Assembly: GCF_014023125.1 (NCBI RefSeq)
Contig: NZ_CP048914.1
Location: forward strand, 1,516,698-1,580,697
Direction of reading: 5' to 3'
DNA length: 64,000 nucleotides
Source: Candidatus Xianfuyuplasma coldseepsis
Lineage (GTDB): Bacteria > Bacillota_I > Bacilli_A > Izemoplasmatales > Izemoplasmataceae
Both the position numbers and the translations under genes were made by a program. Positions 6,349 through 47,805 of this stretch are shown here, one piece after another. The first letter of the stretch is position 1, and each line of letters starts with the position of its first letter. A model generated the notes under the pieces. The model saw nothing but the letters and a program-made list of their open reading frames with translations. It was not told where the DNA came from and searched no databases.

Positions 6349-6978
6349 ATGGCTAGAATATCAAAAGAAGATCAAGCACGCATCCGTAATGACATTTTAG
6401 AAGTAGCAAGTGTGAAGTTTCAGGAAGCAGGATTTGAACATGTATCGACCAAAGCAATTGCGAAAGAAGTTGGGATTGCAGAGGGAACATTGTTTAATTA
6501 CTTTGATTCGAAGACGCATTTGTTCCTAGAAGTGTTCAGTGAACAGTTTATCCTTGAGAATGGAACACTTACGTTTGATGTCAATTTGGATGAACATCTT
6601 GTCGATGCGATTATGAAACATTTGGAAAAACTAATGAAGATGATGTTGCGTTTACCCAAACCAATTTTAACCGAGTTGATGATGGCATCGGTTCGGATGG
6701 CGAAAAAGCATCCGAAACAGTTCAAACGGTTTGCTGAGTTAGACTTTAAGTACATTGAAGAGATGGAACAATTTTTGACGAGATTACAAACACATCATGT
6801 CATTAAAGAGGTGAATCCCCGACTGTTAAGTGAGATGATTTATGGTGTTGTTATGTATGAATTCTTAATCTATCTATACGAGAAAGAAGTAACAAAAGAT
6901 GATATGAAACACAATATACGAACGAAACTAGACCTCTTATTACAGGGGTATTGCCAAGGAGGAGAACATGGGAATTAA
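6349..6978 (+). CDS. TetR family transcriptional regulator
   Basis: 209 aa with the TetR HTH at about residues 10-55 (STKAIAKEVGIAEGTLFNYFDSK) and a helical ligand-binding C-terminal part. The frame extends 5 codons upstream to a TTG, but AAAGGAGG lies there, so the ATG at 6349 is the start. Its 3' end overlaps the next ATG by 11 nt, placing it in one operon with an ABC exporter that it most likely represses through the dyad upstream. The inducer is probably the exported compound. Confidence 0.9.
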   Translation: MARISKEDQARIRNDILEVASVKFQEAGFEHVSTKAIAKEVGIAEGTLFNYFDSKTHLFLEVFSEQFILENGTLTFDVNLDEHLVDAIMKHLEKLMKMMLRLPKPILTELMMASVRMAKKHPKQFKRFAELDFKYIEEMEQFLTRLQTHHVIKEVNPRLLSEMIYGVVMYEFLIYLYEKEVTKDDMKHNIRTKLDLLLQGYCQGGEHGN

Positions 6979-37758: not shown

Positions 37759-38667
37759 CTATAAGTCTATTACATCTTCAAAGTTCATATTGAACTTATT
37801 TTCTATGGATTTTTTGTAATCATCCAATTTTTTACTTTTCCCCTCAATGTATAACTGTAAAAGTGCTTTTTTCGCAGATTCAATTGCCCCAATCTTATCT
37901 TCAGTATCCCATTTTGCATACGCATTGATTAGAAAGAGAGAAGACAAGGCAAACGAGATTTCATTATTGAGACAAAACTCAATTCCTTGATTGGTGATTT
38001 CTATTGTTCTTTTGAATTTTTGTTGTCGTCCAAGAATCTGCCCTAAAACAAGATAAATACTGGGTAATAGTGTGGTATCCTGACCTAGAGGTAGATTATA
38101 TTGTGATTCTGTTAACATTTTATACATTAACTCAGCAGGTTCATAATTATCAATTTTTGAACTGATTAAAATCATTTGAAATAGAATGTTTAGTTCAATG
38201 ATATTAAAAGATTCATTATTCTGACATTCTGGATAATTTATCATTTTTGAATACAATTCAAGAACATGTACATCGGAAACCATATTAAGATTGTGCTGGA
38301 TAAATAACATACAAAAATCAAAGAATAGTTTATTGTACTTTGACACGAAAATTGCTTCTCTTATATCTTTAGCCAACTTGTATGCATCATCGAACTTTCT
38401 TTGTTTTATTAGATTAAAGATGTTGTTTATTTGTTCAAGTTGACTATCAGATTTTTTAAGGAAAAGTAGATGTAAATCACTAATACTGTAGTTCAATCGA
38501 TCAGCTATTTGAACTAATATATCATTTGGTATTGAGGTGTCTCCTCTTAAATACCTTTTGTATTGACTTAGAGAAATGATTCCATCACAGAGGTCTTCTC
38601 TAGACATGTTTCGGTCTAATCTTAAGCCATCAATAAATAGACCAAACTCACGTGCATTTGTAGACAT
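37759..38667 (-). CDS. HTH plus helical-repeat regulator A, RRNPP (PlcR/Rgg-like)
   Basis: 302 aa. HTH at about 8-65 (FIDGLRLDRNMSREDLCDGIISLSQYKRYLRGD), then about 230 residues of paired helices consistent with TPR repeats. Length and layout match PlcR/Rgg peptide-binding activators. A paralogue (regulator B) lies 0.7 kb away and shares RNMSREDL-x2-GIISL. AGGAGGTG precedes the ATG. Its start is only 85 nt from, and divergent to, a 43-codon secreted peptide gene, the arrangement expected for a regulator and its pheromone. The pairing is inference from architecture; the fold call is from pattern recognition. Confidence 0.75.
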   Translation of the reverse strand: MSTNAREFGLFIDGLRLDRNMSREDLCDGIISLSQYKRYLRGDTSIPNDILVQIADRLNYSISDLHLLFLKKSDSQLEQINNIFNLIKQRKFDDAYKLAKDIREAIFVSKYNKLFFDFCMLFIQHNLNMVSDVHVLELYSKMINYPECQNNESFNIIELNILFQMILISSKIDNYEPAELMYKMLTESQYNLPLGQDTTLLPSIYLVLGQILGRQQKFKRTIEITNQGIEFCLNNEISFALSSLFLINAYAKWDTEDKIGAIESAKKALLQLYIEGKSKKLDDYKKSIENKFNMNFEDVIDL

Positions 38668-38689
38668 TTGAAAAACACCTCCTAATGGG

Positions 38690-38717
38690 TCATATATGAA
38701 CTTTATTTATCAAATAA
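38690..38717. promoter_or_regulatory. Two dyads between regulator A and the peptide gene
   Basis: TCATATATGA (38690-38699, perfect palindrome) and TTATTT-ATC-AAATAA (38703-38717). The second covers the -35 region of the peptide promoter (weak TTTATT, 17-nt spacer, TAGAAT at 38725-38730). Weak -35 boxes overlapped by a dyad are typical where an activator binds. Confidence 0.5.
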
Positions 38718-38752
38718 CATCTTATAGAATATAAGCAAGGAGTTGATATAAT

Positions 38753-38884
38753 ATGAAAAAAGCAATCGCAATCTTATTAGTTTTAGCAGCTATTATAACA
38801 TCTGGTGGGGGAGTCAATGTATTTTCTGATGCTGGAGATGAATATGTAGATGATGTAACTGAATTGCTTCCAATCAGATACTAA
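38753..38884 (+). CDS. Small secreted peptide, candidate pheromone precursor
   Basis: 43 codons, ATG to TAA, with AAGGAG 10 nt upstream. Residues 1-20 are a Sec-type signal (MKKAIAILLVLAAIITSGGG); residues 25-36 are acidic; the C-terminus is ELLPIRY. The size, signal, acidic spacer and C-terminal LP-x-x-aromatic end resemble PapR, whose last residues are the mature PlcR pheromone (ADLPFEF type). It is divergent from an RRNPP-like regulator. Not homologous by any search I could run; the pheromone role is inference. The coding call itself rests on RBS, signal and codon pattern. Confidence 0.65.
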   Translation: MKKAIAILLVLAAIITSGGGVNVFSDAGDEYVDDVTELLPIRY

Positions 38885-39036: not shown

Positions 39037-39315
39037 ATGACAGCTTTGCAAGAACTTACAATAGAATATGATGGAATGTTAGGTACCATTAAACAATATT
39101 CATGTGATCCATACGTAATGAGCTACTTAAATAAACTTAAAAATGCCATGGTAAATGAAGATTATTCAATGATACAAATTATGATCCAAAAACTTAATGA
39201 GTGGTATGAAGAAAATATTAATGCCATAGAAGAAAATCGTTGGGTAATAAATTTAGATTCCCATCATAAAACACAGAGACTTATTAAAGAGTTTATGTTT
39301 AAGTTTTCGAATTAA
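39037..39315 (+). CDS. Orphan 92-aa protein in the peptide-regulator locus
   Basis: Not recognised. Predicted mostly helical and soluble, with no signal peptide; two cysteine-poor helices (LQELTIEYDGMLGTIKQYS and MIQIMIQKLNEWYEENINAIEENRW). A very strong site ATAGGAGG precedes the ATG. It follows the peptide gene by 152 nt on the same strand and ends at a terminator shared with regulator B. It could be a target or immunity-type protein of the locus. The long AT-rich 5' region has a possible hairpin but no certain promoter. Confidence 0.65.
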   Translation: MTALQELTIEYDGMLGTIKQYSCDPYVMSYLNKLKNAMVNEDYSMIQIMIQKLNEWYEENINAIEENRWVINLDSHHKTQRLIKEFMFKFSN

Positions 39316-39342
39316 AAAAGAGACGATGTCTCTTTTTTATTT
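39314..39342. terminator. Bidirectional terminator
   Basis: AAAAAAGAGAC-GAT-GTCTCTTTTTT between the 92-aa gene and regulator B. Confidence 0.9.
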
Positions 39343-40236
39343 GAATTCAACTAAGTCTTGCTCAAGCAATTCAAACGTCTTGTAAATTGTTTTTTTGTAG
39401 CCTTCTTTTATACTATAGTTATCAGAAATGTTTAGCAGAGCAAACATTTTTTGGAGAGATGTTCTATATCTGTAATCATCATATAGCTTCTTTTCAGCAA
39501 CGGCTTTGTAATAAAATAAATTTATCATAGGCAAAAAATTATCAGAGACTATGAAAGTATTTTGTGCTGATTGTAAAAGATTTAGTGCTTTTTCGTGCTC
39601 ATCGACGATTCCTAGACATTTTGCAGTTATGATTCGAAAAGGAATTGTTGTATTATCGGTATTAGATCCATTATTTATTTCATTCTGCACAATTTTGTAG
39701 AAAAAATTGGCTATTCTATAATCTTTTTGTAAAGTAAGGTAGTTTACTAAATAAATCAAAGCCGATTTTTCAACAAATGTAAGTACATCTTTTTTAAGAA
39801 CATTTGGATAATCAATCAAAAGTATAAGTTGTGTCGAAGCCTCATTGTAGGTTAATCTATCTTGTTTTACGGATAGAAGTAAGTTAACAAATTCATAGAA
39901 TTTTTTATTTGTCTCATTGTCAAGATCTGTTTTTTCAATAGAACTGAATAATTCATATGCTATTTTCAGATCATCTACATATACTTTTCTGTAAATCTCT
40001 ATTAATTTTTTATATAGTTCATCAGACGCTGAGTAAAAATTACCAAATAGTTGGGTTTCTGATAGTTCTAATCTCTCTAAGAACTGAATTAGAACATTAC
40101 TATTGATAGTTGTTTCTCCTTTTATGAATCGGTAGTAGTGTCTAAGGGAGATGATTCCTTCAACAAGGTCTTCACGTGACATGTTGCGAGATAGTCGTAG
40201 TTGATCGATGAATTGAGCGAATTCATAGTTGTTCAT
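39337..40236 (-). CDS. HTH plus helical-repeat regulator B, paralogue of regulator A
   Basis: 299 aa with the same layout as regulator A: HTH at about 5-60 (FIDQLRLSRNMSREDLVEGIISLRHYYRFIKGE) and a helical C-terminal 230 residues. The paralogy is clear in the HTH, weaker in the ligand region, so the two may recognise different or partly overlapping peptides. It starts only 19 nt behind trpS with AGAAGGAAGG as RBS and no terminator between, so it is probably transcribed with trpS and thus under the trp T-box. No peptide gene lies beside it. Confidence 0.72.
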   Translation of the reverse strand: MNNYEFAQFIDQLRLSRNMSREDLVEGIISLRHYYRFIKGETTINSNVLIQFLERLELSETQLFGNFYSASDELYKKLIEIYRKVYVDDLKIAYELFSSIEKTDLDNETNKKFYEFVNLLLSVKQDRLTYNEASTQLILLIDYPNVLKKDVLTFVEKSALIYLVNYLTLQKDYRIANFFYKIVQNEINNGSNTDNTTIPFRIITAKCLGIVDEHEKALNLLQSAQNTFIVSDNFLPMINLFYYKAVAEKKLYDDYRYRTSLQKMFALLNISDNYSIKEGYKKTIYKTFELLEQDLVEFK

Positions 40237-40255: not shown

Positions 40256-41254
40256 TTAGCGTTTGCGTCCTAAACCAATGCGGTTCATTAACTTGAAGAG
40301 TTTCTTTTGAGATACTTTGTATGCAGCATCTCGACCTTTGTCAAAGATGTCATCTAGTTCCTTGGAATTGATGAGTTCGTTGTATCTGTCTTGAATCGGT
40401 TTTAATTCTTGATAGATAAGTTCTCCTAAGTCATCTTTGAATTCCTTGTACCCTTTGTCAGCATACATCGCTTCGATTTCGTCAAATGATTTATTGCCAA
40501 TCAATGAGTAAATCGTCATAAGATTTGATATACCAGGTCGTTTTTCGGGATCGTACGTAATCGTTCCAAGGGAATCGGTAACAGCTGAACGAATTCGTTT
40601 TTTAATGATGTGTTCCGGATCGAGTAAATTGATTCGGGATTTTTCATTGGCATCGGATTTGCTCATTTTTGCGGTTGGATCGGTGAGACTGTTTATTTTT
40701 GCACCAACTTCGGCAATGAGTGGTTCGGGTACGGTAAAGATATCGTTGTATTTGTTGTTGACACGTTGAGCGATGTCGCGAGTTAGTTCTAGATGTTGTT
40801 TCTGATCGCGTCCGACCGGAACAAAATCCGGATCGTACAGCAAAATATCGGCTGCCATTAATGTCGGATAAGTGAATAATCCAACGGTGACACCAGTTTC
40901 TTGTTTTTTGCTTTTGTCTTTGTACTGTGTCATTCGTTCGAGTTCACCAATGTAGGCATTGCATTGAAGTAAATATGCCATTTGCGCATGAGCGGGAACT
41001 TCAGATTGAATGAAAAGGTTCACGCGTTCGGGACGTAATCCGCAAGCAATGTATAGTGCGGCGAGTTCACGAATCAGTTTGCGTAACTCCTGTTTGTCTT
41101 TGTATACCGTGATTGCGTGTAAATCAGCGATAAAAATGAAAAATTCATAGTCCGGCAACTCATCTTGTAGTTTTACAAAGTTTTTCACACTTCCAAGATA
41201 TGTTCCGATATTAAGGGATCCAGTCGGTTGGATTCCCGAGAGTATTCGTTTCAT
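40256..41254 (-). CDS. trpS: Tryptophan-tRNA ligase
   Basis: 332-aa class Ic synthetase. The HIGH-equivalent is NIGTY (15-19) and KMSKS is at 196-200; GRDQKQHLELTRD and the N-terminal LSGIQPTGSLNIG are typical. Full length. ATAAGGAGG precedes the ATG. Expression is controlled by the T-box in its leader; regulator B is downstream in the same transcription unit. Confidence 0.97.
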   Translation of the reverse strand: MKRILSGIQPTGSLNIGTYLGSVKNFVKLQDELPDYEFFIFIADLHAITVYKDKQELRKLIRELAALYIACGLRPERVNLFIQSEVPAHAQMAYLLQCNAYIGELERMTQYKDKSKKQETGVTVGLFTYPTLMAADILLYDPDFVPVGRDQKQHLELTRDIAQRVNNKYNDIFTVPEPLIAEVGAKINSLTDPTAKMSKSDANEKSRINLLDPEHIIKKRIRSAVTDSLGTITYDPEKRPGISNLMTIYSLIGNKSFDEIEAMYADKGYKEFKDDLGELIYQELKPIQDRYNELINSKELDDIFDKGRDAAYKVSQKKLFKLMNRIGLGRKR

Positions 41255-41274: not shown

Positions 41275-41496
41275 AATAAAAAAGTTCGTCCTTGGTAAAG
41301 GACGAACTTGTAAGTCCGTGGTGCCACCTTTGTTCTAGAGTACTCTAGCACTTGGTACCATTAACGCTGGTTAACGGGTAGGATTAGTACCACTCATGGG
41401 TCCATTCCGATACGTTGTATTGTTTGGCTTTCACCATTCCAAACTCGCTAGGTATACAAGGGGTGTATCGTACTCTGTCCAGTCGTTGTGTTGATT
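41275..41496 (-). promoter_or_regulatory. Tryptophan T-box leader of trpS
   Basis: On the minus strand a T-box riboswitch: stem I region with AGCGAG and GGAATGGTGAAAGCC loop, specifier bulge GAA-TGG-ACC (Trp codon TGG at 41402-41404), T-box sequence GGTGGCACCACGG (41316-41328) and terminator AAGTTCGTCCTT-TACC-AAGGACGAACTT (41282-41309) with T run. A promoter TTGCAT-N17-TATCAT (-10 at 41503-41508) lies in the end of pepF. Uncharged tRNA-Trp would favour antitermination. Confidence 0.92.
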
Positions 41497-47584: not shown

Positions 47585-47590
47585 ACAAAT

Positions 47591-47805
47591 GAAATCAATG
47601 CGGAAGCCGAGTATAGAGTTTAACATCTTTAGAGAGTTCGTGGACGGTGCAAACGAACGATGACGATTCTAGAAGCTACTTCCAAGAGGTTCTAAACCAA
47701 CCCGTATCTCTGCGTTAAAGAGTTGAGTGTCTACAATAGTAGAAATTAAGGTGGTACCACGGATATAATGTTCGTCCTTTGAATAAGGATGGACTTTTTT
47801 TTGAA
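47591..47805 (+). promoter_or_regulatory. Alanine T-box leader of alaS
   Basis: T-box riboswitch: specifier GAA-GCT-ACT with Ala codon GCT at 47675-47677, T-box GGTGGTACCACGG at 47750-47762, and the terminator GTTCGTCCTT-TGAAT-AAGGATGGAC (47770-47794, two G-U pairs) with eight T. It links operon expression to uncharged tRNA-Ala. Confidence 0.93.

Follow-up and report, generated by a model that had tools for sequence, protein, structure and literature searches.

Does a 43-aa open reading frame (ORF) of Xianfuyuplasma coldseepsis zrk13, which was the first free-living Izemoplasma to be cultured (PMC8397711), encode a secreted signalling peptide, and is that peptide related to PapR, as the initial annotation proposed? 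The window, i.e., the whole stretch of DNA analysed, is 64,000 nt long and belongs to a genome of a single contig of 1,958,905 bp (G000; G and L numbers are our handles for genomes and loci). The following features of the locus are given in window positions.

37759-38667, minus strand: reg1, a 302-aa HTH + TPR receptor/regulator with a predicted PlcR-like RRNPP fold, divergent from the 43-aa ORF (Pfam, model and fold searches)
38687-38701, plus strand: putative operator palindrome GGGTCATATATGAAC between reg1 and the peptide gene, present in 8/8 peptide promoters, with variant arms in some
38725-38730, plus strand: -10 hexamer TAGAAT, at offset +38 counted from the operator's first G
38737-38742, plus strand: Shine-Dalgarno sequence AAGGAG, ten bases 5' of the ATG (direct reading); all orthologues have a Shine-Dalgarno sequence here
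38753-38884, plus strand: putative pheromone precursor ORF, 43 aa, ATG start, MKKAIAILLVLAAIITSGGGVNVFSDAGDEYVDDVTELLPIRY (direct reading)
38753-38833, plus strand: predicted Sec signal region, residues 1-27, with a signal peptidase I site between SDA and G (simple script rule)
38834-38881, plus strand: predicted secreted tail GDEYVDDVTELLPIRY, net charge -4 (by-eye alignment with the repeat units of relatives)
39037-39315, plus strand: 92-aa gene, the next gene after the ORF, a stand-alone homologue of the SpbK N-terminal domain (PADLOC, PDB match)
39313-39339, plus strand: terminator-like hairpin after the 92-aa gene, 12 pairs and a T run (shuffles, mean 0.2)
39337-40236, minus strand: reg2, an orphan paralogous RRNPP-like regulator, 299 aa (sequence and model)
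40256-41254, minus strand: trpS, after reg2, named from its own sequence

Two T-box leaders were also observed in the window, one preceding trpS (41295-41495, minus strand) and the other at 47589-47782 (plus strand).

The ORF is real. As the initial annotation described, its product begins with MKK and continues with a hydrophobic core and an acidic stretch to the C-terminal ELLPIRY, and ORFs of the same type were found at all reg1 loci with upstream sequence (8/8, own included): each encodes a 43-46-aa MKK propeptide with a hydrophobic core, is preceded by a Shine-Dalgarno sequence and is divergent from reg1. At a ninth reg1 locus, in G066, a propeptide of the same kind is cut by the contig end after 15 codons, and G067 has a complete 42-aa propeptide at a contig end, without its reg1. 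Secretion was called from N-terminal charge, the hydrophobic core and the (-3,-1) rule, and a signal peptidase site of the (-3,-1) type was found by a simple script rule in all nine complete orthologous propeptides. All nine also have a net negative stretch of the last 16 residues and at least one proline among the last eight. Searches of Pfam and NCBIfam gave nothing convincing for either the 43-aa peptide or the 92-aa protein. One phage tblastn match of the peptide was rejected, since it runs antisense to other ORFs of a faecal contig that has no annotation.

The tails of orthologous propeptides vary by species around a common pattern, judged by eye, of aromatic-x2-aliphatic...hydrophobic-Pro. 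It had been suggested that a C-terminus that varied while the signal region was kept would speak against a pheromone. We found the opposite, in favour of a functional C-terminus: G009 and G067, which belong to the same genus, keep the tail GYGDLxPxLPVxxV while their signal regions differ, and the own tail TELLPIRY resembles the tail TEHLPLPVY of G001. G002, which has the receptor closest to reg1 (55% identical), nevertheless ends in an unlike tail, TPEGGNN, as would be expected of pherotypes. A core [YFW]x[DEGKR][ILVSTM] (aromatic-x-acidic-aliphatic) occurred in 19 of 22 tails, against a mean of 4.1 and a maximum of 11 in 2000 shuffles, a comparison that is descriptive since the motif was picked after viewing the tails; those of the own propeptide, G027 and L046a are without it. 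Two-cysteine tails, such as ADYCDIPTAQSELPQPCN, ADFCDVNDNDPLPYLCPQ and AEWCELPPQGEPIPTSC, were observed in propeptides divergent from RRNPP-like regulators at L016 (G023), L046 (G013, twice) and L051 (G001), and are possibly disulfide-closed pheromones. Also, L021 (G008) carries a tandem pair of propeptide genes with identical tails YVDFDDIDLPEVVVV.

The observation that argues most strongly for a locus encoding processed peptides came from more distant relatives. In 13 such family genomes, the gene at the homologous place is a tandem-repeat precursor, in which a signal region is followed by 3-9 units (counted by eye). These precursors were found by searching upstream of homologues of the 92-aa gene, and two of them are open at a contig end. 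The repeating unit is ~13 aa long, for example LGFDEFDDPEYVR, IGFEELEDPEYVR, LDFDNEDDLPEYVT, IDFDDRDEPEFIN or VDFDERDAPEYVG, and several units abut without spacer, so that the peptide of those species should not exceed 13-14 aa. The core of the unit, aromatic-acidic-acidic...Pro-Glu-Tyr-Val (F/Y-acidic...P-E-Y-V), aligns by eye with YVDDVTELLPIRY of the 43-aa product, and the active pheromone probably lies within this segment. Such tandem precursors nearly reveal the pheromone sequences.

The receptor side of the locus was examined by profile and structure searches. The N-terminal HTH of reg1 matched PF01381 HTH_3 in Pfam (E 3.7e-7), and its AlphaFold2 model (8 orthologues; pLDDT 88.8, pTM 0.79) was an all-helical TPR structure. 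The best PDB match of this model was PlcR-PapR 2qfc (Foldseek E 3.2e-7, TM 0.58-0.61), followed by ComR, Rgg2 and PrgX; VIA-align Z was 19.3 (2qfc), 18.4 and 17.9 for three PlcR entries, and 15.4 for the first unrelated TPR protein. The similarity to PlcR is a fold match with TM about 0.6 and identity of 16%, and the rmsd is large, about 10 A, so the domain arrangement differs. The sequence profile of reg1 reached Rgg2 and ComR solely in the DNA-binding part. Among the 49 family genomes searched, 8 further genomes had reg1 orthologues, and the seven that were aligned are 41-55% identical. A contig search with reg1 alone returned no relative, and the search with an alignment returned 8 loci, the named relatives there being Candidatus Izimaplasma and Izemoplasma records. 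Its paralogue reg2 is 25% identical to reg1 (E 2.5e-22), and the reg2 model (AlphaFold2, pLDDT 86.9) was closest to PlcR-PapR7-DNA 3u3w (Foldseek E 3.7e-6). It lies beside the module in most orthologous loci; in G027 (L041) the module has no reg2 between the 92-aa gene and trpS. No propeptide of up to 80 aa was found upstream of reg2 at the own or orthologous loci, and reg2 might respond to this signal as well.

These features agree with the composition of RRNPP/RRNPPA systems. The receptor is predicted to have a C-terminal TPR peptide-binding domain behind its HTH_3 domain, a secreted-propeptide gene is adjacent in 8/8 orthologous loci, and the genome has an oligopeptide importer, an OppABCDF-like run at G000:1272500-1286000 (genes at ~1274-1284 kb, permease and ATPase names read from the sequences), together with two SBP_bac_5 matches and a signal peptidase S26. 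Two very large oligopeptide-binding proteins were observed, of 1069 aa at L205 1540-4749 and of 1124 aa at L206 8332-11706; judged by eye, their extensions are coiled-coil or dockerin-like.

The promoter of the peptide gene has a fixed geometry. In 8/8 promoters a TANNNT hexamer stands at an identical offset from the palindrome, with 64-66 nt from the site to the ATG, and the composite operator/-10 pattern is also present in G066 and G067. The 20-nt spacers between operator and -10 are little conserved (mean identity 42%, versus 36% for shuffled spacers with a maximum of 43%). The centre of the operator would lie near -42, which points to the place of an activator overlapping the -35 region; because the operator sits between divergent genes, repression of reg1 or of both genes is also possible. 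Other propeptide groups were seen by eye to bear other palindromes at the same promoter place, of the types CGACATAT..GCGCTGT and ACGGAC...GTCCT (L049, L014, L021, L079 and L016, L067, L046, L015, L048), as if operator class and pheromone class went together.

A search of the 1.96-Mb own genome for the composite pattern with at most 1 mismatch found 3 sites, against 0.0039 expected. One is the pheromone promoter; the other two, and a weaker fourth site, are listed below.

G000 443041-443083, minus strand: composite site before two MreB/Mbl genes (Pfam and NCBIfam)
G000 411752-411794, minus strand: composite site before RDD, Wzz, CapB-type kinase and CpsB genes (Pfam and NCBIfam)
G000 6362-6404, minus strand: fourth site, before PEMT-like and GH3-like genes, -10 one base off, 3 mismatches

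Each of the mreB/mbl and Wzz-CpsB leaders opens with a c-di-GMP-I riboswitch (scores of 62.2 and 53.8 bits), and the own genome has 4 such riboswitches in total. With 40 further site regions from relatives, mostly with ≤2 mismatches and some with 3, 43 regions were scanned in all, and each of the 8 c-di-GMP-I matches in them (8/8) was located directly 3' of the operator site on the same strand. The mreB pair with its riboswitch follows the operator in G002, G029, G066 and G067, and the PEMT-GH3 pair does so in at least 14 genomes, the own among them (a judgement by eye on translated ORFs; the G066 contig ends within PEMT). In the drafts G003, G013, G023, G033, G064 and G065 the PEMT-GH3 site occurs without a full reg1 orthologue found, so the box may be recognised by a different regulator, or the draft assemblies may lack reg1. 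The reg1 switch appears to govern cell-shape and slime genes jointly with a second internal signal. A secreted small molecule made by the PEMT-like and GH3-like pair (G000:C1:4.2-6.4 kb, L088) would fit a public good. An additional candidate target site, G000:1062795, with 2 mismatches and the -10 one base off (hand count), precedes a 723-aa secreted protein. Operator-like sites at G000:1824934, 65276, 617378 and 1630099 were inside or at the edge of coding sequence and were not counted as targets.

The third component of the locus is the 92-aa protein. It matched the PADLOC spbK profile (E 1.2e-20, positions 33-122 of 308) and SpbK in PDB 9phb (E 6.8e-12, chain 26-112); it has the N-terminal helical domain of SpbK and, with 92 aa only, does not have the C-terminal TIR NADase domain. 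In the family search for its homologues, the open frames of 54 rows were 58-159 aa long, compared with 293 aa in an SpbK-length homologue. We found SpbK-N-like genes in 34 of the 49 family genomes, in 53 distinct copies. A small secreted ORF was directly upstream of 31 of 40 copies versus 4 of 138 control ORFs at the same loci, where copies were counted by an automatic rule among distinct ones with at least 400 nt upstream, and one of the 31 (L226) looks spurious. A second own copy (G000 1030104-1030370) is without an upstream propeptide. A tblastn search of the 92-aa protein against plasmids gave no match. The 293-aa SpbK-like protein (L232 3001-3882), with the same N-terminal domain and TIR-type length, derives from an unannotated faecal 'Bacteriophage sp.' contig, MT836075. 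It was also observed that 17 of 37 SpbK-N-like copies were ≤500 nt from a contig end (3.1 expected), as were 5 of 27 control riboswitches (2.4 expected), in a count that excluded finished genomes, repeat-contig rows and rows without known contig extent; repeats or strain variation seem to break the assembly at these loci.

In B. subtilis, the N-terminal region of SpbK forms a bundle of four helices and binds the phage portal YonE (PMC12847820, PMC11984713), and in ICEBs1 spbK and the RRNPP pair rapI-phrI occupy a single stretch (PMC8880864, spbK-rapI-phrI deletion). The steady link between propeptide and SpbK-type domain raises a concrete question, the origin of an anti-phage sensor. We offer a tentative and, as a whole, rather doubtful extension: receptor, precursor with 1 to 9 copies and SpbK-N domain might form one three-part signalling module native to Izemoplasmataceae, in which the small protein would be a working part of the circuit (e.g., a receptor partner, an antagonist or a sensor linking phage or envelope state to density); spbK-rapI-phrI might be a relic or a parallel, with SpbK having arisen by fusion of this companion to TIR; and the output might pass a second gate, the c-di-GMP riboswitches of the shape and slime genes, in a bacterium that has no wall.

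In our view, the 43-aa ORF very probably encodes the precursor of the pheromone in a PlcR-like quorum-sensing module of the RRNPP type, and we assign a probability of roughly 85% to the whole scheme, from precursor export, trimming and Opp re-import to activation of the pheromone gene and a regulon by reg1. It is suggested by what the sequences contain, namely gene order, conservation, operator geometry, riboswitch adjacency, receptor fold and repeat precursors; export, processing, import, binding, the direction of activation and the choice of reg1 or reg2 as operator binder are drawn by analogy with the RRNPP paradigm. In this scheme, the precursor would be exported by Sec and cleaved by signal peptidase I after SDA-27 or nearby, and other proteases would trim it to a C-terminal peptide within GDEYVDDVTELLPIRY. 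The peptide would be re-imported by the Opp oligopeptide permease and bind the TPR domain of reg1, and loaded reg1 would then bind GGGTCATATATGAAC, the centre of which would lie ~42 bp 5' of transcription starts. It would activate its own pheromone gene, a positive feedback, and also the MreB/Mbl pair, the Wzz/CapB/CpsB polysaccharide operon and the PEMT-GH3 operon. Population density (through transcription) and c-di-GMP (through leader RNA) would jointly act on cell shape and exopolysaccharide.

Several other explanations have to be weighed against this module. One is that the peptide is true PapR, with a 5-7-residue mature peptide LLPIRY, and that its PlcR-PapR system either came from Bacillus or is common to both lineages. 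The part of the initial proposal that held is functional: a Sec-type precursor that may act like PapR lies beside a receptor whose modelled fold is nearest PlcR (2qfc at rank 1, E 3.2e-7, Z 19.3), has a similar length and ends in hydrophobic-Pro-x-x-aromatic. Homology to PapR was not supported with regard to gene order, box, C-terminus and repeats. PlcR target promoters carry the PlcR box TATGNANNNNTNCATA; no such box was found in 38668-38752 even with 1 mismatch, and the window had 7 matches versus 5.58 expected. The pheromone gene of PlcR is downstream of its receptor (PMC9765709), whereas the gene studied here is divergent and upstream. The proposed 5-7-residue mature peptide of the LPFE(F/Y) type is likewise not supported, as the PapR peptide is ADLPFEF (PMC6568020) and the own end is LPIRY rather than LPFEF, orthologue tails differ widely, those of G002, G009, G012, G029 and G067 being without a terminal aromatic residue, and the repeat unit of relatives is about 13 aa. 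Because box, gene order and C-terminus are all unlike PlcR-PapR, the locus was filed as a PlcR-like RRNPP system and not as PapR, and true PapR is highly improbable. A search of one review (PMC4873490) gave no passage on divergent gene order or the PlcR box.

A pheromone system could also be wired differently, such that the peptide relieves repression by reg1, or reg2 is the main receptor, or the two are antagonistic like Rgg2 and Rgg3, which form an antagonistic regulator pair. The retention of an RRNPP-like reg2 without a propeptide of its own beside most modules fits this possibility; the fixed operator-to--10 spacing fits an activator instead, the recognition-helix stretches of reg1 and reg2 differ in the alignments, and G027 does without reg2 at this place, which makes such wiring unlikely. 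A secreted antimicrobial or toxic (bacteriocin-like) peptide, to which the 92-aa protein would confer immunity while the HTH-TPR protein would be an ordinary regulator, would account for a small secreted peptide with a hypervariable tail, for the small conserved protein directly 3' and for the paired-cysteine variants of some relatives. However, the tails are short and acidic, without an amphipathic or hydrophobic mature part, the receptor is PlcR-like, identical 13-mers occur in tandem, and the 92-aa family resembles the SpbK N-terminal bundle rather than a membrane immunity protein; this explanation is very improbable. Finally, being short and about 150 nt 5' of a conserved gene, the ORF might have arisen by chance or might serve the 92-aa gene simply as a leader peptide. 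There is hardly any likelihood of this, given that 8/8 orthologous loci keep the ORF with Shine-Dalgarno sequence and promoter, that variation is greatest where a pheromone would vary, and that the control rule picked out such ORFs before 4 of 138 other genes, compared with 31 of 40.

RRNPP signalling has been described from walled Bacillota, and our literature search found no report of it in Izemoplasma or Mollicutes-like bacteria. The RRNPP_detector survey scanned Firmicutes genomes, and the main text of the RRNPPA surveys searched does not name Izemoplasma, Mollicutes or Tenericutes; their supplementary data may list a match. Very probably, this tiny gene beside a peptide-sensing switch supplies the signal with which a free-living, wall-less inhabitant of the sea floor gauges its population density. 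As the host is cultured, free-living and wall-less, and its predicted regulon is compact (mreB/mbl, polysaccharide, PEMT-GH3) with two c-di-GMP riboswitches following one operator, the way in which density and c-di-GMP are combined can be tested directly.

With regard to known systems, the module shares with PlcR-PapR of the Bacillus cereus group an HTH + TPR receptor of closest fold, a short Sec-type precursor, a C-terminal pheromone with a hydrophobic-Pro pair and, presumably, the activation logic; it differs in the divergent gene, the operator GGGTCATATATGAAC, the C-terminus, the repeats in relatives and the extra SpbK-N-like gene. TprA2-PhrA2 of Streptococcus pneumoniae is similar in that the regulator is on the strand opposite the peptide gene (PMC5436883) and belongs to the five-TPR PlcR/TprA group (PMC12700828), but the peptide tested for PhrA2 was its C-terminal heptamer, VDLGLAD, and the regulon is an ABC/lcp locus, whereas the targets predicted here are mreB, polysaccharide and PEMT-GH3 genes. 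Repeated pheromones within one precursor are known for the AimR, NprR, PlcR and Rap groups with up to six copies (PMC9765709); the Izemoplasma relatives likewise have several identical copies in one precursor, and reach about nine units. In Clostridioides difficile, the RRNPP-type regulator RstA binds the flgB promoter, whose leader holds a c-di-GMP riboswitch (PMC6414698). RstA is a repressor, while in our case two loci of one genome share an exact layout of operator, -10 and riboswitch with the operator of the pheromone promoter. The likeness to SpbK of Bacillus subtilis ICEBs1 consists of N-terminal domain homology and a nearby RRNPP pair (rapI-phrI in ICEBs1); the 92-aa protein has no TIR domain, and a phage-defence role is not indicated. 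The initial annotation is confirmed as an observation; its interpretation is partly supported and extended, to a PlcR-like RRNPP system whose predicted regulon is unusual and to which an unexplained third component belongs.
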